Of a stretch of DNA of 64,000 bases, positions 41,498 through 64,000 are shown one piece after another (within the stretch, counting starts at the first letter, position 1; each line of letters starts with the position of its first letter). Location: positions 62,001 to 126,000 of the forward strand of contig NZ_BDGT01000007.1 of the NCBI RefSeq assembly GCF_001748285.1, read 5' to 3'. The notes below the pieces were generated by a model. That model made no database searches, was not told the origin of the DNA, and worked only from the letters and a program-made list of their open reading frames with translations. Origin of the DNA: Thermogemmatispora onikobensis. GTDB lineage: Bacteria > Chloroflexota > Ktedonobacteria > Ktedonobacterales > Ktedonobacteraceae. The position numbers and the translations under genes are program-made.

Positions 41498-41998
41498 TCA
41501 GGCAACGGTACTAGAGACCGGTGCTGGGGCCGCTTTGAGAATATAGCCAGTCTCCAAGATCGAGACGATGTTGATACCAAAGATGCGCAGCTTGATACGC
41601 ACGCGCGAGAGTACGTTGCGGATAGGGCGCGTGGCCTGCTCCCAGGTGCCGTCTTCAAGGGCCTTGAGCAGGTTGGCACGACAGCGCTCGATGGTACGCT
41701 CGGTAACCTCGCCGTGATAGAAGTGGGCGAAGAGCACCTCGTATGGGCAGTAGTAGGGGTAGGAGTCCAGCAGCGGGCGGAGGACGTTCATTTCGTTATT
41801 GGTAAATTGCTGCTGGAGTACCAGGGCTGGTTGTTTGTCAAGATAAGTGAGGCAGGAGAGGGTGCCGAAGGCCGTATTGAGGGCGAGGACATACCCTTCT
41901 GGGAGCACGCCATGCAGCGTATAGTGCTTGATGTGCTCGCGATCGTGAATCAGTTTGCGTGCGACGCGGGCCTCTTCTCGGCAGGCGATCATTTGCAT
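41498..41998 (-). CDS. Orphan winged-helix (OmpR/PhoB-type) DNA-binding protein
   Basis: A 166-residue protein with a C-terminal winged-helix domain of the OmpR/PhoB type. The run from FTNNEMNVLRPLLDSYPYY, through TERTIERC and IRNVLSRVRIKLRIFGI, to ETGYILKA matches the trans_reg_C layout (the recognition helix region followed by the terminal hairpin GY). There is no receiver domain; the N-terminal 60 residues (ARVARKLIHDREHIKHYTLHG) are of unknown type. The region between the expected helices 1 and 3 is lengthened. I chose the ATG at 41998 because AAGGAGAA is 6 bases upstream; a longer frame to 42226 is Arg/Pro-rich noise. DNA target unknown. Confidence 0.68.
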   Translation of the reverse strand: MQMIACREEARVARKLIHDREHIKHYTLHGVLPEGYVLALNTAFGTLSCLTYLDKQPALVLQQQFTNNEMNVLRPLLDSYPYYCPYEVLFAHFYHGEVTERTIERCRANLLKALEDGTWEQATRPIRNVLSRVRIKLRIFGINIVSILETGYILKAAPAPVSSTVA

Positions 41999-42518
41999 GG
42001 CGATTCTCCTTGTGCGTTGCTGCATATGACTGACAGTGCTCCCTGACCGGTGGACGCGCGGGCCGGGCCGTTGCATGGTTGGTGTGGCGGCGGCGGCGAT
42101 CCCTCGCGTTGGTGGCTGGCCGAACACTGGGCCACGGCGTGTGGCCATGCTTACGGGTACGATCCGCTTCTGCTCCTGGTGACTGGCGAGCCGCCAGGTT
42201 GCTGGGCTGCGCCAGAATGCAAGCAAATAAGCAAGCGGACAAGTAAGTAAGCACGAGAAAAGAAGAGCACGCAGGGGGCGAGGTCAATGGTAGGGTCCCT
42301 GGGGTGAGACGCGCCGTGGTCCTGCGGCGGGTGGCATTGGCCTCACCTGGCGGCGGGGGCCCCGTCCCTGAAAGGGCCTCCACCGTTTCCCTACGTGTTC
42401 TTTACTTTATTATGCCGAGTGACCATGTACATCAGAAAGTACTTATGTTATCATTTCCCTAGACATCTTTATCATTTCGAGGGGTTCTCTTCTTTTGGGC
42501 GTCGGGGGAGGCCTATCC
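41999..42518. other. Intergenic upstream of divergent regulators
   Basis: No gene seen. AT content rises sharply after about 42400, where a weak plus-strand promoter can be placed. A stretch with repeated AAGCAAATAAGCAAG-type words lies near 42220-42250. Confidence 0.5.
42426..42454 (+). promoter_or_regulatory. Weak promoter candidate for the NB-ARC-TPR gene
   Basis: TGTACA at 42426-42431 and TATCAT at 42449-42454 with a 17-base spacer. Matches are 4/6 and 5/6. The region is AT-rich and 65 bases before the start. Confidence 0.33.
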
Positions 42519-45245
42519 ATGAGCAGCAACCGATCGGTGGAGGAGCCACCGCGGCCCCGCGTGCGTCTCGTGGAGGCTCGCATGAGCCGTGGCTGGTCGC
42601 AGCAGGAGGTGGCTGAGCGACTGGGGACGACGCATGTCAATGTGAGCCGCTGGGAGCGCGGGGTGACGAAGCCCAATCCGTATTTTCGACGCAAGTTGTG
42701 TCGGCTGTTTGGGTTGACAGAGGAGGAGCTGGACCTGGCGCCCGCTGTGAGCGAGGCGTCGGGGCGGGAGGCGCAGGCAGGAGTGGGGGGTGGAGCGGAG
42801 GGGATGGCTGGCGGTGGTGGGCCGGAGCAGGGCGAGCAGGAGCTGCTGCGAGGTGGCCGTGACTCTGGTCCGCTGGGGGAGGTGACGGGCGGGCGTCCGG
42901 CTGAGACGATTATTGATCCGATGATTCCTTTGCCGCCGCCGGTGCGCCTGGTGGGACGCGATGCTGAGTTGCAGCGTATTAAGGGGCGTCTTTTTGCCGG
43001 TGAGGCGGTGGCTCTGAGCGCTTTGAATGGGTTGCCTGGGGTGGGCAAGACTTCGTTGGCGGTGGCCCTGGCGCATGATCCCGAGGTGCGGGCCTATTTC
43101 AAGGATGGCATTCTCTGGGCGGCGCTGGGGCCACGTCCTCATATGACGGGTCTCTTGAGCCGTTGGGGGGCTTTGTTGGGCTTGCCGGCGACGGAGGTGG
43201 CCGGGCTGACGAGTCTGGAGGCCTGGGCCAGGGCTTTGCGTACGGCGATCGGGCCGCGGCGGATGCTGCTGGTCATTGATGACGCCTGGCGGATTGAGGA
43301 GGCGCTGGCGTTGAAGGTGGGCGGCGCCCAGTGCGCTCATTTGTTGACGACGCGCTTTGCACATGTGGCGACGGAGTTTGCGGTGGAGGGGGCGGCGGCG
43401 ATCACGGAGTTGGGCGAGGAGGATAGTGTGCAGCTCTTGCGCTTGCTGGCGCCGACGGCGGTGGAGCAGGAGCCGGAGCGCGTGCGGGTTTTGGTGCGGG
43501 CGGTTGGCGGGTTGCCGTTGGCCTTGACGTTAATTGGGAATTATTTGCGTAAGGAGAGCTATGCAGGTCAGGTGCGCCGTATTCGGGCGGCGCTGCAGCG
43601 GCTGAGCGATGCGCGGGTGAGGCTGGGTTTGACGGAGTCGCGGGGCCCGGTGGAGGTGCATTCGAGCCTGCCAGGCGAGCCGGTGCTGTCGCTGCAGTCG
43701 GTGATTGCAGTCTCGGATGAGCAGCTGAGCCAGGCGGCGCGGTCGGCGTTGTATGCGCTCTCGGTTTTTCCGCCGAAGCCGGCGAGCTTTTCGGAGGAGG
43801 CGGCCCTGGCGGTGGCGGCCTGTTCGACGGATGAGTTGGATGCGCTGGTGGATGCGGGTTTGCTGGAGAGCAATGGCGGCGATCGCTATTTGTTGCATCA
43901 GGTGATTGCGGATTATGCGCGGACGCGCCTGGAGGCCCAGGGTGAGGAGGCGGTGCAGGCCCCTTTTGCCCGCCTGATGGAGTATGCAATCGATTATGCT
44001 GAGGAGCATCGGACGGATTACGAGCTGCTGGAGCGGGAGAGTGCGGTGATTGTGGCCGGTCTGGAGGCGGCCTATATGCTGGGACGACAGGCGGAGCTGG
44101 TGCGCGGGGCGGTGACGTTTGCGCCGTTCTTGCTGGTGCGGGCCTCGTATGGGGTGGCCGAGCTGTGGCTGCAGCGTGCTCAGGCGGCGGCCCAGGCCCT
44201 GGGCGATCAGCACGGGATGACAGGGGTGCTGCTCTACCGCGGGCAGATCGCACTGCGCCAGGGGGATTATGCCGCTGCCGAGGGCTATTCTCAGGAGGGG
44301 CTGCAGCTGGCCCGCGCCCTGGGCGATCCCGAGCGTATCTGTGCCCTGCTGACGGATTTGGGAACGGTCTTTTCAAGGCGTGGAATTTATGTGCAGGCTG
44401 GAGTCTATCTGCAAGAAGGGCTGCAGATAGCGCGGCAGATCGGTCATAAGGAGCAGATTTGCGAGCTACTGGGCAAGCTTGGGGAGATTGCTGCTCGCCT
44501 TGGAGACTATGGCCAAGCCGATGCCTATCTCCAGGAGGGGCTGGCTCTGGCCAGGGAAATTGGAGATCGTGAGCGTATCTGCTTGATGCTGGCTAGCTTG
44601 GGTGCTTCTGCCGGAGAGCAGGGGAAGCATCTTCTGGCCAAGGAGTACGCTCAGGAAGCCTTGTCATTGGCCAGGCTCATGAGCCACTTCGAATGGATGA
44701 GCCTATTGCTTATCAATTTAGGGGAAGCTGAAACTGAGTTAGGAAACTATGAATTGGCTGATGCGTATTTCGATGAAGCATTGATGCTTGCAAGAAATAT
44801 AGATCACAAGGAATTAATGTGCGCTATATTTATTAATGAGGCTATAATTAATAGGAGAAGATTTCAGCTTCAAAAGGCTGAAATGCTTCTGAAAGAGGGT
44901 TTGATACTAGCACAAGAACTAGGAGTTCCTTATTTTATTTGTCATGTCTTAAATGAATATGGCAATATATATATACAAAGAAATCAGATTGAAGATGCTA
45001 GAAAAACTTTTCAGGATATGATGAATACCATACCAGGAGGGGCACAAGATTTGGTAGCCCTTGCTCAGTATGGACTGGCTAGAATAGCGGCATTAGAGGG
45101 AAAGAAAGATGAGGCTAAGGAAATGGCTCGAAAAAGTTCAGTAATCTTGCGATCTATAGGACATCGATCTATAGCGGAAATAGAAGATTGGCTTGTGCAT
45201 CTGGAAGATAATGGCGAAGGGGCTATCGAGACAGGTGAACAATAA
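42519..45245 (+). CDS. XRE-NB-ARC-TPR regulator (STAND ATPase)
   Basis: A 908-residue protein. XRE helix-turn-helix (about 17-73, with SRGWSQQEVAERLGTTHVNV), an acidic/Gly-rich hinge, an NB-ARC ATPase (Walker A GLPGVGKTS with K177, Walker B LLVIDDAW with D254, GLPLAL motif), a winged linker and about eight TPR repeats to the C-terminus. STAND proteins of this layout switch on when a ligand meets the TPR region. ATG at 42519 follows GGGGGAGG. The base composition changes strikingly inside the gene: GC-rich with G-ending codons up to about 44,200, then AT-rich from about 44,680 to the end, without loss of frame. It faces a tiny secreted-peptide gene 52 bases beyond its stop. Confidence 0.9.
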   Translation: MSSNRSVEEPPRPRVRLVEARMSRGWSQQEVAERLGTTHVNVSRWERGVTKPNPYFRRKLCRLFGLTEEELDLAPAVSEASGREAQAGVGGGAEGMAGGGGPEQGEQELLRGGRDSGPLGEVTGGRPAETIIDPMIPLPPPVRLVGRDAELQRIKGRLFAGEAVALSALNGLPGVGKTSLAVALAHDPEVRAYFKDGILWAALGPRPHMTGLLSRWGALLGLPATEVAGLTSLEAWARALRTAIGPRRMLLVIDDAWRIEEALALKVGGAQCAHLLTTRFAHVATEFAVEGAAAITELGEEDSVQLLRLLAPTAVEQEPERVRVLVRAVGGLPLALTLIGNYLRKESYAGQVRRIRAALQRLSDARVRLGLTESRGPVEVHSSLPGEPVLSLQSVIAVSDEQLSQAARSALYALSVFPPKPASFSEEAALAVAACSTDELDALVDAGLLESNGGDRYLLHQVIADYARTRLEAQGEEAVQAPFARLMEYAIDYAEEHRTDYELLERESAVIVAGLEAAYMLGRQAELVRGAVTFAPFLLVRASYGVAELWLQRAQAAAQALGDQHGMTGVLLYRGQIALRQGDYAAAEGYSQEGLQLARALGDPERICALLTDLGTVFSRRGIYVQAGVYLQEGLQIARQIGHKEQICELLGKLGEIAARLGDYGQADAYLQEGLALAREIGDRERICLMLASLGASAGEQGKHLLAKEYAQEALSLARLMSHFEWMSLLLINLGEAETELGNYELADAYFDEALMLARNIDHKELMCAIFINEAIINRRRFQLQKAEMLLKEGLILAQELGVPYFICHVLNEYGNIYIQRNQIEDARKTFQDMMNTIPGGAQDLVALAQYGLARIAALEGKKDEAKEMARKSSVILRSIGHRSIAEIEDWLVHLEDNGEGAIETGEQ

Positions 45246-45297
45246 GCAGCTTCTGTCACCGGTTTCTCAAGCCCCTTACAGATCTTTCAAGCTTGCT

Positions 45298-45426
45298 TTA
45301 GAGAGGCCACCAGTAAATATTCGGGCTAGCCGCGTGGGTGGCCAGTGGAGTAATCGTCAGAGCCAGAGCGACGACGGCCAGCAGGACGACCAGTGGAACG
45401 ATCCAGCGCAGATTCTTCTTCAGCAT
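45298..45426 (-). CDS. Tiny secreted peptide precursor, 42 residues
   Basis: Found by reading the minus strand; too short for usual gene callers. The ATG at 45426 follows GGGGAGG with 8-base spacing. The product starts MLKKNLRW, continues with a long hydrophobic core and ends ATHAASPNIYWWPL. The A-H-A motif fits signal peptidase I cleavage, which would release a peptide of about nine to ten residues (ASPNIYWWPL). The stop is a TAA at 45298-45300, convergent with the XRE-NB-ARC-TPR gene. Such short exported peptides next to XRE-TPR proteins are the hallmark of RRNPP peptide signalling in Firmicutes. Here the pairing is inference; a plain small secreted protein is the alternative. Confidence 0.62.
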   Translation of the reverse strand: MLKKNLRWIVPLVVLLAVVALALTITPLATHAASPNIYWWPL

Positions 45427-45487
45427 TGTGAAACCTCCCCAATCGAAATCATCAAATAAGTGAGCCTCGGCAAAGTGAACTGCGAAC

Positions 45488-45505
45488 CCTCGCCGAAAGG
45501 CGAGG
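45488..45505 (+). other. 7-bp hairpin with GAAA tetraloop
   Basis: CCTCGCC and GGCGAGG pair perfectly around GAAA on the plus strand (TTTC on the minus). It lies 60-80 bases upstream of the peptide start. Could be the end of the region's upstream transcript or part of the peptide mRNA leader. Confidence 0.5.
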
Positions 45506-46588
45506 TGAGGAGTATGGCAAACAGGCGTACCTAGTGAGTAAGCGAGCTATGACTGGCCTGCCTGATCCAGGCACTGGCCCGGGTCGGCGGCGGTGGCGCG
45601 CGCAGATAGCCCTCCTCGCAGCGGTGGATAGCGTCCAGCCCGGCCTGGTTCGTCCCACGTCCCAGGCTCTCGGCCCCTTTGGCGAACGGAGCTGGATGGG
45701 CAGATCAATTGAGCTAAGCTGAGCCGGGGCGGGCAGAAGAGGAGGTAGCTGCCATTGACGGCGACCATCCAAACTGCCCTGTCATGCTGTCGAGACGCAT
45801 CCTACTGCTTTCCGTAACCTTCGGGCCATTCTGTGGTAATGATGCACTGGCGCTGGCTTACAACTGACTGGTTCAGGCGACTCGACCGACTGATTAACCA
45901 ACCAACGAACTAACTTACGGCAAGCCCCTGGTTACGTGATGGCCTGACAGACGTGGCTGCAGTCGCGAATGAGAACCGACTGACCTGCTCACCCCGTTTG
46001 TTCAGCTGGCTGACCAGGCCCTTTACGGTGAACCTGATCTGAGCTGCCCTTTGGCTGCTCCTGGGCCGCTGGGATGGGGTCCTGTGCCGCCACGGCGCGA
46101 GTTGCTGACGACCGACCGCCCCTGCGAGGGGAGCTAGCCGCCGCGCCACCGACGACCGACCTGCAAACTGAGCCACAGCGATGCAATCGTCTAATCTTGT
46201 TCAAGGTACCCTGGTCCGAGCGAGCCGGCCATCCCGAGCGGGTGGGGCAGTGCTACAAGCGCTGCACCCTGGATAGCTGGCCCTGACCGACCAGCACGAG
46301 CGGTCCTTCTCCTCCCCACCGGTAGATCCGGGCCGCTCAGTCCTTCCTGACAACCTTGGCGTATCGTTTTCCCGATACGCACATCTCTCACACTCGGGAA
46401 GATTACCCGAAGATTCGCCAACCTTCAGGAACTCCCTCAAAGAATCCATCGAAAGTACTATCGTCTTCACGAAGAGTCTTGAAGAAGACAGCCTGGTATC
46501 ACTGCCCGCTCCTTTGGCCTGCCAGGCTGAACGAGAGAGGCGCGGGAGGAGTCGAGGAGGTGTGACCTCAAAGGAGGTTGCTTGCACC

Positions 46589-47429: not shown

Positions 47430-47849
47430 TCATAATTTTTGCCCATAGGCTGCCACAAAGCAGTAGCAAGTATTTAGAGCATCCCATTCTTTACCAGCCT
47501 GCTCTATAATGTTATGGATCTCTTGCTCCTGCATTTTGAAATAGGCAGCGATGGGAGGCGTCATAGCCTTCCAGCCCTCGCGGATGTCCAGAGAGAAGAG
47601 GGAGCCGAGGCGACCCGCCCATGCGCTGATTGGGGCATCGATCATGTGGCGCTCGACGTTCAGGACAGCGCGCAGCACATAATGCTGGAAGTCGAGGCGG
47701 TTGACCTCGCCCAGGTCCTTGGGAAGCAGGTAGGGCTGTTGGCCCAGATAGCGACGCGAGCTTGTCCGAGATGGGAGTACACTCTCCTCGAGGCCTGTTC
47801 GGCGGATAGATGCCGGACACGAGCGGCGTCGAAAGAACCACCAGCGCAT
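47430..47849 (-). CDS. Core-deleted methyltransferase paralogue (139 residues)
   Basis: Shares both ends of the array proteins: the N-terminal tag MRWWFFRRR, then SSRRYLGQQPYLLPKDLGEV, joined directly to the C-terminal part WAGRLGSLFSLDIREGWK and ending VAAYGQKL. About 176 residues, including the SAM-binding motif I, are absent, yet the frame is unbroken, so it cannot be a methyltransferase. It may be an internally deleted relic or a small protein that keeps the tag and the C-terminal region, for example as an interaction partner. It is the last gene of the array, 105 bases beyond the copy at 47955. A ribosome-binding-like GAAAGGAGTG precedes the ATG, so translation is possible. Confidence 0.7.
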   Translation of the reverse strand: MRWWFFRRRSCPASIRRTGLEESVLPSRTSSRRYLGQQPYLLPKDLGEVNRLDFQHYVLRAVLNVERHMIDAPISAWAGRLGSLFSLDIREGWKAMTPPIAAYFKMQEQEIHNIIEQAGKEWDALNTCYCFVAAYGQKL

Positions 47850-47954
47850 AAGGGCTACTCACTCCTTTCTGGTGAAATAGGGCAAGCGCTCGCTCAGTCA
47901 GGCTCTGGCATGAGAGCTGCTGAAGCAAGAGGTAGAGCCAGTTGCGAGCCTCCC

Positions 47955-48902
47955 TCAGCTGCTATAAGGCTTCTGGCCGTAGGCGGCGACGACGTGGTAG
48001 CGCGTCTGCAGGGTGTTCCACTCCTGTCCGGCCTGTTCGATGAGGGCCAGGACCTCCTGCTCCGACATCTGGAAGCGGGCGGCAATGAGGGAGCTGATCG
48101 CTTTACCGGCCTCGCGCAAATCCAGGGAGAGCAGGGAGCCAACGCGCCCGCCCCAATCGCCCAGTGGAATATCGATGTCCTGGCGATTGACCTGTATCAG
48201 CCCGGCCTGATGCAGGAAAGAGTCCAGGGAGCGGAGGACCCCACCCTCGTTGTCGAGGCCACGGAGGGCACCTAGCTGGCCCATGAGATAGAGAAATTGC
48301 TGGGTAGCTGGTCCGGCTGGATTGAAATGACTGACATGGGTGCCCGCCTCGACCAACTCGACCCAGCCGCCGGGGACGGTGACGCGCACGAGTTCTCGCA
48401 CAACATTCGGCCAGGCCGCGAGAGGAATAGCCAGCACGAGCAGGCGTTGATGGACAAAATCGAAGGTCTCGTTCTCAAAGGGGAGGCCCTTCAGGGCATC
48501 GCCCTGGACGAAGCGGTAGTTAGCTGGTGGAGTAGTAGCTTTAGCTTTGGCAGGCTCCAGATCGAGGCCGATGACCTCGGCCTGGGGGAATTGCTGAGCG
48601 AGTTCAATGGCCCACTGGCCGGTGCCACAGCCAACGTCGAGGATGCTGCGCGGCTGGACGATGGGCGCTAAATAGTTACCACGCAGTGCGGAACGCAGGA
48701 CATAATGCTGAAAGTCCAGGCGGTTGACCTCGCCCAGGTCTTTGGGGAGCAGATAGGGCTGCTCGTCCAGATAGCGGCGCGAGGCTGGTGAACCTGGCTG
48801 GGGTGGCTCGCTGACTGCTGGACGAGGCGCAGGCCGAACAGAGTCAGCAGGTGTGATAGATGCGTTTGTCTCGCGGCGCTGGCGAAAGAACCACCAGGGC
48901 AT
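47955..48902 (-). CDS. LaeA/UMTA-like class I methyltransferase, array copy H
   Basis: A 315-residue protein and the most diverged intact copy. N-terminal tag MPWWFFRQRR, a variable Pro/Ser linker, then the block DEQPYLLPKDLGEVNRLDF. The SAM-binding motif I is ILDVGCGTGQWAIELA, with the acidic post-I residue in VIGLDLEPAKAK and motif IV-like FDFVHQRL. The block order (LPKD, RLDFQH, then GCGTGQW, FDFVH and PGGWVEL) is that of the fungal LaeA/UMTA family, which affects secondary metabolism and development. Its linker before RFVQGDALKGLPFEN is distinct from the other copies. The gene is 105 bases from the deleted copy. Substrate is unknown for the family in bacteria; methyl transfer to a small molecule or protein is inferred. 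Confidence 0.85.
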   Translation of the reverse strand: MPWWFFRQRRETNASITPADSVRPAPRPAVSEPPQPGSPASRRYLDEQPYLLPKDLGEVNRLDFQHYVLRSALRGNYLAPIVQPRSILDVGCGTGQWAIELAQQFPQAEVIGLDLEPAKAKATTPPANYRFVQGDALKGLPFENETFDFVHQRLLVLAIPLAAWPNVVRELVRVTVPGGWVELVEAGTHVSHFNPAGPATQQFLYLMGQLGALRGLDNEGGVLRSLDSFLHQAGLIQVNRQDIDIPLGDWGGRVGSLLSLDLREAGKAISSLIAARFQMSEQEVLALIEQAGQEWNTLQTRYHVVAAYGQKPYSS

Positions 48903-49036
48903 GAGAGATTCCTCCTTGCGGGCAAGTTAATGCTCATACGAGCTAAATAGTACAGCATTGGGCAATGGCTTGTTCATCGCGTGAATGGCCCTGGGCCCTA
49001 GGTCACAGCGAAGTCACGGCGTGTCCAGCAGGGCTT

Positions 49037-49140
49037 TCAGACCTGACGGGCATGGTCAATGATGGCTAGCACTTCCTGCTCAGACCTCTCGAAACGAGCC
49101 ACACGGAAGCTCTGATTACCTCTCGGGCTTCACTACTCCA
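49037..49140 (-). pseudogene. C-terminal remnant of another array methyltransferase
   Basis: Minus-strand codons 49037-49096 read RFERSEQEVLAIIDHARQV and stop, clearly matching RFGRSEQEILQLIEQA of the intact copies. Just upstream, in another frame (about 49097-49140), SSEAREVIRASV resembles REACKAISAPI. The rest of that copy is gone. The flanking 48903-49410 interval otherwise holds no gene. Confidence 0.65.
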
Positions 49141-49410
49141 GGCGAAAGCTGTCAAGAAACTGAGGCATTCCCGACTTGCTTCAGGAGAGTAGAACAAGCT
49201 CCCCTGTGAAGCCGGCTGTGTTGCCTCTGGGGGCGAGCCAGGGGATGAGAGAGTGTGTGTGCTCCCCTCCCACTGGCTGGCTGTACCTGCACAAGCAGGG
49301 AGCTGGGTCTTGCATCACCAGGGCAGGCGCTCAGGTCCTGCGACCTGAGCGTATGTGATTCTGTCGAGGAGGCGCCGATCAGTCCCCACTGCCCTCTGAT
49401 GAGCATGGGT

Positions 49411-50210
49411 CTAGGTGGTCGGTGGTTTTCTTCCATAAGCAACGGCAAGCCGGTAGCGCGTATCAAAATTCATTAATTCTCTTGTTGCTTCTTCAATCAA
49501 ATCAGGATCTTCCTGCTCTGGGATCTGGAGGCAGGCGACTATGGCGCTGCTGAGTCCCTTTGAACTCTCCCGGAAATCGAGGGTCAGCAAGGAACCGAGG
49601 CGTTCACCCCGCTGGCTCAGAGGCACCTCGAAGCATTGGTATTCTACCCTGGCCAGTCTGGCATCGCGCAGATAGCGGTCGAGGGAACGCATGATGACTC
49701 CCTCGGTATCAAGGCCGCGCTGGGCTGCCAGTTGCCCGGCCAGGAAGAGCAGGCGCTGATGGACGAAGTCGAAGGAGTTGTTGTCGAAGGGGAGGCCCTG
49801 CAAAATATCTCCCCGAACGAAGCGGTAGTTGGGAGGAGGAGAGGTAGTAGCTTTGACCTGTTCGAGGTCGAGGTCGACGACCTCGGCGTGGGGGAACTGC
49901 TGTGGTGGGCGAGTTCGAAGGCCCACTGGCCGGTGCCGCAGCCGACATCGAGGATGCGGCGCGGCTGCTCGATGGGGGCCAGGTAGTTGCCGTGCAGGGC
50001 GGCACGCAAGATATAGTGTTGGAAGTCGAGGCGGTTGACCTCGCCCAGGTCCTTGGGGAGCAGATAGGGCTGCTCGTCAAGGTAGTGACGGGAGGCAGCA
50101 AAGGATGGCAGGGTTGTCTCATCGTGAGACGGGCTGACCACGGACGGTTTGGGAGCGGTGGCATTGGCGGAAGCGTTCGTTGCGCAGAGGCGGAAGAACC
50201 ACCAGGGCAT
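49411..50210 (-). pseudogene. Frame-broken methyltransferase copy (G)
   Basis: The N-terminal frame starts at the ATG at 50210 with MPWWFFRLC, carries DEQPYLLPKDLGEVNRLDF and RRILDVGCGTGQWAFELAHH, then is thrown out of frame by an apparent 5-base insertion near 49898-49908 relative to the other copies. The downstream frame resumes with FPHAEVVDLDLEQVK and FDFVHQRLLFLA, but then lacks about 45 residues (the post-PGGWVEL region) before GQLAAQRGLDTEG. Two lesions make an active enzyme unlikely. It ends VAYGRKPPTT. It lies 47 bases downstream of copy F. Confidence 0.85.
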
Positions 50211-61749: not shown

Positions 61750-64000
61750 TCAGGGGGCCGTTCTTTCTGGGCGCCTGTCTTCAACGGCACCCAGGGCCAG
61801 CAGGGCCTGCCTTTCCAGATCGCTCAGGCCCTGCACTCCCTGGATATTCATCCCTTCATAAGGGCGTGGTAGACTGAGAATACGCTCCAGCTCTCCGGTT
61901 TCGGCCTGCCAGAGTCGGATCTCTCCCTCATTGCCGCCGCTGGCGACCAGAGGGCCGGCCTCAGCGGGGGCAAAGCCTAGCGCGCGCACCATATACTCGT
62001 GACCGCTCTTGAGCGTGTGGCGCAACCTGCCATCGCGCTGCCAGAGGCAGAGCCTCAGATCATCGCCGCTGCTGGCCAGCCACTGACCATCGCCGCTAAA
62101 AGCCACGCAGCGCACTCGACCGCCATGCCCCTGGAGTCGCTGCGCTGGCCTCTCGCTCTCCAGGTCCCAGAGCAGCACCTGGCTATCCTCGGCCCCACTG
62201 GCTAGCAAACGACCATCGGGACTGAAGGCCAGCGAGCGCACCGGGCGGCTATGGCCCGTCAACGTGCGCACACAGGTGCCGCTGGGGACATCCCAGAGGC
62301 GCAAAAGCGTATCGTCGCCCCCGCTCACCAGCAGGCTATGGCTCGCCTCTCCTCCTGGCCTGAAAGCCAAAGCCCGAATCCAGCAACCGGCCTGCAGCTC
62401 ATGGACCATCTGACCACTGACCAGATCCCACAGGCGCACAAGCTCGTCTTCGCTGCCGCTGGCCAGCCAGTGGCCGTCAGGACTGAACGCCAGACTGCGC
62501 ACCCAATCGCGATGGCCGGCGAAGTGTCGTTGTATCCGGCCTTCCGGCATCGACCAGAGCCAGATCACTTCGTCTTGTCCGCCGCTGGCCAGCCACTGCC
62601 CGTCGGGACTGAAGGCCAGGCTCAGTGGTTCATGCTGTAACTTATGGAGTAGCCGCAGCAGACGCCCGCTGGTCCAGTCCCAGATCGCGATGCCTTCTCC
62701 CTCATAAGCCGCTGCCAGCCAGCGGCCCGCAGGGCTGAATGCCAGCGACCGAATGCGGCGCGTATAGCCGTGCAGGCGCGTTAACACATGTCTCCGGGCC
62801 CAGTCCCACAGGCAGATCGTCTGATCGTCGCCTCCGCTCACCAGCCAGGACCGCCTGCTCGCAGGGTGAAAGCTGACCGTGCGCACACCATGAGTATGGC
62901 CCGTCAGCGTAGCGACCTGCTCTCCCGTCTGTGTCCGCCAGAGGCGAACAGTCGTATCCTCGCTGCCACTGGCCAGCCACTGCCCATCGGGGCTAAAGGC
63001 CACCGTCCAGACGCGGTTGGTATGGCCGCGCAAGATACCGTGTTCCGTCCCGCTCGCCACGTCCCATAGACGCACCGTGCCGTCGTCGCTGCCGCTGGCC
63101 AGCAACATCCCGCCGGCCCCAAAGGCAAGCGAGCGCACCTGATCGCGATGCCCCTGCAGCACATACAAAGGTTCCTCCCAGCCTGGCAAACGCCAGAGCC
63201 GCAGCGTACCCGCGCCATCGCCGCTAGCCAGCCACTGCCCATCGGGACTCAGCGCGACTGCCCAGACCCGTCCCTGATGTCCTCCCAACACGCGCAGGCA
63301 CTGCCCGGTTTCCAGATCCCAGAGACGCAAGGTCTGATCATTGCTCCCACTTACCAACAGACCATCATCGGGACTGAGCGTCAAGGCCCGCACCCGATTG
63401 GCGTGTCCCTCCAGCACCCTCAGACAGCGACCGGTCTCCAGATCCCAGAGGCGCAGCGTTCGGTCATCGCTGCCGCTGACCAGCCGCCGCCCGTCATGGG
63501 TAAAGGCCAGGGCCCAGACCCCATCAGTATGGCCCTCCAGCTGTTGGAGCAAATGCTCGCAATCGCCATCGTACAAACGAATCTCGCCGCTCGCTGTCCC
63601 CACAGCCAGCCGCTGCCCATCGGGACTGAAGGCACTGGCCAAAACATTGGTCAGCGTACTCTGAAAAACCGTAGCCACAAAGTGGGCGAAGGCGAAATTC
63701 ACCTCCTGCAAGCGCGTCCATTGCAGGTAAGCCTGGCGAATTGTCAGCTCTGAGAAATCAAACTCGCGCAGATCCCACTGCAAATAAATCAGTAACTGAA
63801 GCACATTACCAGCCAGATAGCCACGCTGCGAGAAATGCGCCTGTCGTTGGCGCTCCAACGCCCGCTTGAGCCGCTCCTTAAGCGCTGGCTGGCCCACCTC
63901 GCTGCGCAACATCTCCGCCAGCGGCGCCAGGATCATGCGTATCTGACTCTCGCGCACATAGGCGCGCACCTGAGCCTTCACAAAAGCAAATTGCTCCCAG
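61750..64000 (-). CDS. WD40 repeat protein, C-terminal part of a probable STAND ATPase (runs off the window)
   Basis: At least 743 residues from a GTG at 63981, but the frame has no stop up to the window end, so the start lies outside. The visible N-terminal part (VRAYVRESQIRMILAPLAEML, then GYLAGNVLQLLIYLQWDL and RQAYLQWTRLQEVNFAFAHF) is the linker typically found between an NB-ARC/NACHT ATPase and WD40 repeats in bacterial STAND proteins. Fourteen WD40 repeats follow, each with a SPDGQWLASG-type strand and RLWD ending, enough for two seven-blade propellers. Such proteins sense ligands and can trigger immune-like or regulatory outputs. It ends DRRPERTAP. Confidence 0.85.
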   Translation of the reverse strand, partial: WEQFAFVKAQVRAYVRESQIRMILAPLAEMLRSEVGQPALKERLKRALERQRQAHFSQRGYLAGNVLQLLIYLQWDLREFDFSELTIRQAYLQWTRLQEVNFAFAHFVATVFQSTLTNVLASAFSPDGQRLAVGTASGEIRLYDGDCEHLLQQLEGHTDGVWALAFTHDGRRLVSGSDDRTLRLWDLETGRCLRVLEGHANRVRALTLSPDDGLLVSGSNDQTLRLWDLETGQCLRVLGGHQGRVWAVALSPDGQWLASGDGAGTLRLWRLPGWEEPLYVLQGHRDQVRSLAFGAGGMLLASGSDDGTVRLWDVASGTEHGILRGHTNRVWTVAFSPDGQWLASGSEDTTVRLWRTQTGEQVATLTGHTHGVRTVSFHPASRRSWLVSGGDDQTICLWDWARRHVLTRLHGYTRRIRSLAFSPAGRWLAAAYEGEGIAIWDWTSGRLLRLLHKLQHEPLSLAFSPDGQWLASGGQDEVIWLWSMPEGRIQRHFAGHRDWVRSLAFSPDGHWLASGSEDELVRLWDLVSGQMVHELQAGCWIRALAFRPGGEASHSLLVSGGDDTLLRLWDVPSGTCVRTLTGHSRPVRSLAFSPDGRLLASGAEDSQVLLWDLESERPAQRLQGHGGRVRCVAFSGDGQWLASSGDDLRLCLWQRDGRLRHTLKSGHEYMVRALGFAPAEAGPLVASGGNEGEIRLWQAETGELERILSLPRPYEGMNIQGVQGLSDLERQALLALGAVEDRRPERTAP

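Follow-up and report, generated by a model that had tools for sequence, protein, structure and literature searches.

The 64,000-nucleotide stretch analysed here (the window; positions 62001–126000 of contig C7 in the 5.56-Mb genome of Thermogemmatispora onikobensis, G000) carries a gene for a 42-residue propeptide that faces the gene of a regulator combining an XRE DNA-binding domain, an NB-ARC ATPase and a tetratricopeptide repeat (TPR) superhelix. This locus is probably a peptide quorum-sensing (pherotype) system resembling those of the RRNPP group, with a STAND (NLR-like) ATPase as its receptor. The two genes form a linked and conserved pair, the peptide joins a leader under selection to a highly variable aromatic tail, and the tail has been exchanged together with the TPR half of the regulator. 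In the named collection, this genome is matched best by Thermogemmatispora carboxidivorans (G003), T. aurantia (G005) and T. tikiterensis (G001). The positions of all features are collected in Table 1.

The candidate pheromone gene and its family

The initial annotation had described a minus-strand gene of 42 residues with a strong ribosome-binding site, a signal peptide and an aromatic end of about ten residues, directly convergent with a DNA-binding TPR protein, and both parts of this description hold. The gene is preceded by GGGGAGG and its translation is MLKKNLRWIVPLVVLLAVVALALTITPLATHAASPNIYWWPL. As judged by eye and with a home-made rule, the N-terminus has an n-region with Lys/Arg, then a hydrophobic core and a site of the signal-peptidase-I type (THA/A). 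The predicted cut after THA would leave ASPNIYWWPL, a product of ten residues including three aromatics. The propeptide and its aligned relatives (42–66 residues) fall within the 10–100 residues of RRNPP propeptides. The two genes are also adjacent in the manner of RRNPP pairs, with 52 bp between their stop codons, and the HTH_3, NB-ARC and TPR domains of the regulator were confirmed.

The ratio of nonsynonymous to synonymous polymorphism (pN/pS) in leader codons 1–33 is 0.07 in Thermogemmatispora and 0.19 in each of two other genera, which indicates that the gene is translated and under purifying selection. Each of the 26 family peptides compared (the G025 peptide was left out) has the cleavage-type motif [ASTVG]HA[AV], and 25 distinct sequences occur among the 26 eight-residue tails. 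A proline lies 5–9 residues from the end in all 26, always accompanied by an aromatic residue, and 24 contain tryptophan. The final six residues are 42% aromatic. Where motif and tail are separated by a linker (20 peptides), the linker consists of 61% Ser, Thr, Pro or Ala and 1% aromatics. The Thermogemmatispora peptides share a common frame and stop at the identical codon, with the tails SPNIYWWPL (G000 and G003), SPNVTWWTY (T. aurantia), SPNIVVWAR (T. tikiterensis) and NPNWVWWTL (G004).

Ktedonospora formicarum (G012) has an orphan member of the peptide family (L118:6297–6488, plus strand; tail HPNSYWLP) in a 12-kb region with no regulator-matching open reading frame (ORF). The same genome has a second peptide-linked regulator (L117:834–6067; tail HPDHYWFD), located behind another NB-ARC–TPR paralogue of the same orientation. 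In G013 (L115:1866–7722) the regulators are duplicated in tandem, and the single peptide (tail APNVMWHW) is convergent to the second copy only. A frame change breaks the regulator at L041 (G012) and L043 (G028) and leaves the peptide intact; either genuine decay or an error of sequencing could account for this.

Linkage of the peptide and the regulator

Matches to the peptide profile were found in 25 of the 29 Ktedonobacteraceae genomes. A search of 400 Chloroflexota genomes at E ≤ 1e-6, in which no more than 16 candidates from each genome were scored, recovered the same 25 genomes and gave no match in the 371 outside the family; the plasmids searched also gave no match. An earlier search at E ≤ 1 had returned matches in 40 of 61 genomes, many of them weak and inside long frames, and these were not used. 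A weak class match in G033 (E 1.7e-4) lies inside a 493-residue frame and was not counted.

In all 20 regions around those matches of the earlier search that have the leader pattern, a regulator homologue is convergent to the peptide. Sixteen of these regulators are intact (46–94% identity), two are cut by contig ends and two are frameshifted. The convergent pair is also present in G013, G019, G020 and G026, with only a C-terminal regulator piece in G020. Counting the window, each of the 25 peptide-bearing genomes has a peptide copy in convergent orientation with a regulator homologue or with the 3′ part that remains of one.

The pairing was also scored from the regulator side, as a convergent signal-peptide ORF preceded by a Shine–Dalgarno sequence within 700 bp. 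The helix-turn-helix (HTH) profile of the regulator identified 28 places in 27 family genomes at E ≤ 5.1e-35, the next matches having E ≥ 1e-28; the viral contigs contain four relatives of this HTH, with 30–69% identity over 16–56 residues. Twenty-three of the 28 places were evaluated, the others being cut at contig ends (G002, G010, G016 and G020:C454) or frameshifted (G012:C1, where the peptide is present, L041). Such an ORF accompanies 20 of the 23 orthologous regulators, compared to 0 of 27 other XRE regulators (Fisher p = 3.8e-11, or 4.4e-10 with the second G013 copy counted among the others, 1/28). The 27 are a hand-picked sample in which four members (L128, L131, L132 and L138) align only over ∼57–96 residues around the HTH; L126, a shorter ORF, was excluded by a 450-residue limit. 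The sample includes G031, a member of another family, whose regulator is 40% identical and, as scored by the home-made rule, lacks such a peptide.

The initial annotation had proposed a search for conserved peptide genes beside regulator orthologues, and had named their absence or disruption there as a result that would speak against it; this result was not obtained, as 20 of the 23 orthologues have the gene. The remaining three are a regulator broken by a frameshift, behind which the peptide is still in place (G028), a regulator whose contig stops 177 bp downstream (G008) and the tandem duplicate of G013, where the peptide is present at the second copy. A scan of both sides and both strands over 1.2 kb found the downstream-convergent arrangement in 20 of 23 orthologues versus 1 of 28 others (the second G013 copy), and the remaining three arrangements in 1, 1 and 0 of 23 versus 3, 3 and 2 of 28.

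Domains and predicted structure of the regulator

The Pfam families found in the regulator are restricted to HTH, NB-ARC/AAA and TPR, with no kinase domain. The NB-ARC match (PF00931) has an E-value of 1.1e-19. Gly171, the PGVGKT segment (173–178) and Asp254-Asp255 are invariant in all 17 aligned orthologues; we take the latter two to be the P-loop and Walker B motif of the domain. The alignment contains the window and 16 of 20 fetched loci, without two cut at contig ends (L036 and L044) and two frameshifted (L041 and L043). With its NB-ARC motifs, an N-terminal effector (XRE, residues 19–71) and a C-terminal repeat sensor (TPR), the protein has the layout of a STAND NTPase, and its intact orthologues are 851–919 residues long.

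A second alignment, of the window and 21 of 32 loci (cut, frameshifted and most paralogous loci were left out, paralogue L178 was kept), was used to predict the structure. The model of these 22 sequences has a mean predicted local distance difference test score (pLDDT) of 78.8 and a predicted template modelling score of 0.60. The TPR superhelix is well predicted, with block pLDDT values of 85–97 up to residue 890 and 75 in the last block. Its VIA-align matches include domain III of MalT (Z 31.7; 3.5 Å over 339 residues), a phage Rap with its pheromone (Z 28.9), RapF with peptide (27.8), NprR (26.8) and NprR–NprX (25.5). The top Foldseek match of the regulator is the STAND–TPR protein 6mfv. Profile searches of PDB sequences matched the NB-ARC part to AfsR (3e-28), APAF1 and plant NLRs, and Rap3T and NprR were among the matches of the TPR part. 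The defence library gave generic TPR and HTH-level matches. The modelled TPR fold fits a peptide receptor, which is no proof that it is one.

An exchangeable candidate specificity cassette

The C-terminal TPRs of the regulator and the peptide tail have been exchanged together between congeneric species, while the leader, HTH and NB-ARC are conserved, as expected of a pheromone and its receptor. The exchanged tract (Table 1) has a GC content of 0.45 (0.39 at 44645–45245) versus 0.61 for the window, and the nine 600-bp windows below 45% GC, among 1268 in the 64 kb, all lie in it. In 100-bp steps, T. onikobensis and T. aurantia are 98–100% identical over 43245–44244 and 91% over 44245–44344; upstream of 43245 the identity is 89–100%, except for one linker window at 66%. 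For the whole of 42845–44344 the range is 91–100%. It drops to 39–68% over 44345–45341 and returns to 100% over 45342–45541. On a finer scale, the breakpoints are at 44345 and ∼45304–45320, the second of them falling within the peptide gene where leader and mature part meet; the comparison with T. tikiterensis places them at 44348 and ∼45315.

Within the peptide gene, T. onikobensis and T. aurantia differ at 0 of 99 leader nucleotides and at 8 of 27 in the tail. The synonymous divergence (dS) of the regulator is 0.08 for residues 132–560, and it is saturated for residues 611–895. The comparison with T. carboxidivorans shows the opposite: eight nucleotide differences in the leader and none in the tail, with conserved TPRs, the two genomes having tail and TPR type in common. 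Accordingly, the tree of residues 132–560 places T. onikobensis with T. aurantia (support 93/83, moderate and just below the 95/80 mark), and that of residues 611–895 places it with T. carboxidivorans (100/100). As the genus is monophyletic in the latter tree (98/97), the exchange can be placed within Thermogemmatispora. The ratio of within- to between-genus distances is 0.36–0.37 for HTH and NB-ARC and 0.80–0.90 for residues 611–895.

In four more genera (g8, g10, g2 and g3), the stretch from NB-ARC to the leader includes a tract that is divergent and for the most part lower in GC, and the mosaic is clear in G021/G024/G026, G027/G028, G018/G006 and G007/G019. No long divergent tract was found in the control genes, namely two XRE–NB-ARC paralogues of Thermogemmatispora (595 and 526 residues, with little or no TPR array) and three NB-ARC–TPR paralogues in three Ktedonobacter genomes. 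The largest deviations in the Ktedonobacter controls are a 200-bp window of 37–39% identity near the 3′ end of the third paralogue, whose ORFs are of unequal length (794, 872 and 859 residues), and one window of 83% in the second. The linker between HTH and NB-ARC (42747–42844) is a second, shorter variable stretch, in which congeners are 0.63–0.66 identical to T. onikobensis.

Upstream region and neighbouring genes

Table 1. Features of the locus in the window.
Feature	Position	Strand	Description
Candidate receptor, XRE–NB-ARC–TPR, 908 residues	42519..45245	+	HTH_3 19–71, NB-ARC 148–361, TPR superhelix ∼500–897
Candidate pheromone propeptide gene, 42 residues, ATG start	45298..45426	-	Leader codons 1–33 and predicted mature end ASPNIYWWPL
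Exchangeable specificity cassette	44345..45320		Regulator codons ∼610–908, 52-bp gap, last ∼6 peptide codons
Ribosome-binding site GGGGAGG	45434..45440	-	7 nt ahead of the peptide ATG
Direct repeat TATCATT-N14-TATCATT, candidate autoregulatory operator	42449..42476	+	Upstream of the regulator
Conserved divergent neighbour gene, ∼167 residues, candidate third member of the module	41498..42001	-	OmpR/PhoB-type winged-helix-like model, moderate evidence

Upstream of 19 orthologues of the regulator, the exact sequence TATCAT occurs at least twice in 14, with varying spacing, once in three (G028, G014 and G025) and not at all in two (G017 and G007).

The divergent neighbour gene is present in 23 of 31 loci (L151–L181) and is absent from L162, L167, L175 and five paralogous loci. 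In Pfam searches, its only match was a sub-threshold Trans_reg_C, in 4 of 15 members; no PDB profile match below E 0.8 and no significant Foldseek match were obtained. The top 13 VIA-align rows of its model are OmpR-type DNA-binding domains (Z 5.7–8.1) and rows 14–20 are response regulators mixed with leader-binding proteins of ribosomally synthesized and post-translationally modified peptides (RiPPs; Z 4.0–5.3), where Z below 8 may mean only a common arrangement.

On the peptide side, no neighbour is conserved across genera in the ORF lists, in which neighbours were not annotated systematically. In the window, a series of tandem paralogous genes lies beside the peptide on the minus strand (47430–50210). 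One of them (47955–48902) has Pfam methyltransferase domains, another (47430–47849) is an apparent fragment of 139 residues, and a further paralogue is split over two frames (49411–49926 and 49644–50210). The same stretch holds ORFs of ∼300–340 residues in G001, G003 and G005.

Evaluation of alternative explanations

Several results weigh against a pheromone–receptor system. Residue-level co-evolution of tail and TPR was not detected by Mantel tests: the correlation of tail similarity with TPR distance (residues 611–895; r 0.25–0.29) is below that with NB-ARC distance (0.46), and partial tests given NB-ARC are not significant (r 0.07–0.13; p 0.32 and 0.14). The joint exchange might reflect physical linkage within one recombination tract. 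Between less closely related congeners (G014/G022, and G012 versus other g8 members), the mosaic is weak. Eukaryotic scaffolds (APC/C and LGN proteins) match the TPR fold at similar Z. The receptor, with 908 residues and a central NB-ARC ATPase, is outside the 250–500 residues that define RRNPP receptors in the available part of a survey (PMC10075063). A search of the genome for a regulon by the operator-like repeat found none, as the single copy is the one upstream of the regulator. Finally, four family genomes (G002, G008, G010 and G016) have no peptide match; all four are fragmented, with regulator contigs that end inside the regulator or 177 bp past it.

The non-significant partial Mantel tests would suit an explanation in which NB-ARC genes generally undergo recombination or rapid evolution at their TPR-encoding 3′ ends and sweep along the tail of the peptide, itself a small membrane protein of unrelated nature. 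The repeats of a TPR array are alike, the tail directly adjoins the cassette, and one of three Ktedonobacter paralogues has the low-identity window and unequal ORFs described above. However, a long divergent tract is seen in none of the five paralogue sets, in both Thermogemmatispora comparisons measured the tract stops within the peptide gene, where the leader gives way to the mature part, and the leader of all 26 peptides keeps a cleavage-type motif that a plain membrane anchor would not need. We consider this explanation highly improbable. We give equally little credence to the peptide being an antimicrobial or RiPP precursor with the regulator as its local regulator or immunity factor. A short, aromatic, exported-type peptide would be suitable for such a role, the NB-ARC part has a match of 122.6 bits to HaaT, a protein of cyclophane RiPP clusters, and the model of the divergent gene has the low-Z matches to RiPP leader-binding folds, albeit below the OmpR ones. 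The HaaT score, however, falls far short of the cut-off of 1125 for NCBIfam NF041717, its best stretch covering residues 159–489, and one would not expect a bacteriocin to exchange its tail jointly with the TPR half of a transcription factor.

The peptide could also be a self-label in allorecognition or kin recognition, with the NLR-like STAND protein reading own versus foreign tails, in the manner of NLR incompatibility systems, without counting cell density. The variable pairing of a ligand with a candidate receptor in many alleles would be expected of such a system, as would a STAND/NLR-type ATPase that matches plant NLRs by profile and structure and APAF1 by profile. Its N-terminal effector, however, is a DNA-binding XRE domain and not a killing domain, and the RRNPP precedent accounts for the same features more simply, which makes this role unlikely, if less so than the two explanations above. 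The lack of a conserved peptide-side neighbour in the ORF lists (not systematically annotated) argues against both allorecognition and a precursor role. A pheromone and its receptor remain the favoured interpretation of the locus, in support of the initial annotation.

Proposed mechanism and significance

Secretion and cleavage are suggested by the motif in the leader: the 42-residue propeptide would be exported by Sec and cut after THA, and further trimming may yield a linear aromatic C-terminal pheromone of ∼7–10 residues (SPNIYWWPL or similar). The pheromone would be taken back in by an oligopeptide permease; the genome has 12 matches to SBP_bac_5. It would then bind to the XRE–NB-ARC–TPR protein, in the groove formed by the C-terminal TPR superhelix. 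As in other STAND proteins, this would cause the closed NB-ARC (STAND) ATPase to adopt an open state, probably as an oligomer. The open state would free or arrange the XRE domain for control of promoters, at least that of the regulator itself through the upstream repeat and possibly that of the divergent winged-helix gene. As the genes are convergent, their specificity ends lie side by side and one recombination tract can swap both ligand and binding site. Such a joint swap would found a new pherotype.

We consider there to be somewhat better than an even chance that an NLR-like STAND ATPase here acts as a pheromone receptor in a family-wide peptide language, with a “word” that differs in almost every species and a transferable cassette of ligand and sensor. 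This language may govern self-recognition and mycelium or spore development in Ktedonobacteraceae. We know of no species-specific cell-to-cell signal in the Chloroflexota. Among the matches listed from the open-licence PubMed Central (PMC) literature, no peptide pheromone system was found in this phylum and none with an NB-ARC receptor. An in-silico LuxI/LuxR survey among these matches mentions Ktedonobacter. The words NB-ARC and Chloroflexi are not used in the available parts of two RRNPP surveys, one of Firmicutes and viruses (PMC10075063) and one of Firmicutes (PMC9765709), and a survey limited to these groups and to receptors of 250–500 residues would miss the present system.

If correct, this would be, to our knowledge, the first case of peptide quorum sensing in the Chloroflexota and also the first such system to use an NLR/STAND receptor. 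It would assign a natural ligand to one XRE–NB-ARC–TPR regulator out of the many in these bacteria and open two questions to testing: which signals STAND regulators respond to and how new pherotypes come about. At least three complete peptide–receptor alleles (a fourth, G004, is seen in part) occur naturally in Thermogemmatispora on a near-identical HTH–NB-ARC chassis, a ready-made specificity swap.

Comparison with known systems

In most RRNPP subfamilies the receptor has an N-terminal HTH. The locus shares with RRNPP(A) systems (Rap–Phr, NprR–NprX, PlcR–PapR, ComR–ComS, PrgX and AimR–AimP) a small propeptide, here with a predicted Sec-type leader, beside a TPR protein, a linear C-terminal pheromone as predicted here, and a TPR model that matches peptide-bound Rap and NprR. 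The candidate ligand and receptor also diverge between species, as in ComR–ComS, where the available text reports that pheromone–sensor divergence often blocks cross talk (PMC8605241). The locus differs in its Chloroflexota rather than Firmicutes host, in its convergent genes and in the exchange of specificity as one cassette spanning both gene ends. Thus, from the RRNPP layout proposed in the initial annotation, the small exported-type peptide adjoining an XRE–TPR protein stands, whereas the size of the receptor and its STAND ATPase domain preclude strict membership. The system looks RRNPP-like in function.

MalT, which senses maltotriose, and AfsR likewise combine a DNA-binding domain, a NOD/NB-ARC ATPase and a TPR sensor. 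No peptide gene is known to us as a partner of AfsR, although no search was made for one. The present regulator has an N-terminal HTH_3/XRE effector instead of the OmpR-type domain of the SARP/AfsR proteins, and variation in its TPR half goes along with variation in a peptide gene. In AfsR, according to the available part of the source, the NOD and TPR parts inhibit the DNA-binding part and ATP relieves the inhibition (PMC10936776).

Exchangeable specificity is likewise a property of pherotype loci such as agr, comQXP and the pneumococcal comCDE. Their signals and the matching sensing parts of their receptors are allelic and the rest is conserved; these receptors are membrane histidine kinases, unlike the XRE–NB-ARC–TPR protein described here. 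An NB-ARC domain followed by a C-terminal repeat sensor is the architecture of plant and animal NLRs, and is likewise found in APAF1. Compared to these proteins, the regulator is distinguished by a DNA-binding effector and by a ligand that would be its own secreted peptide.

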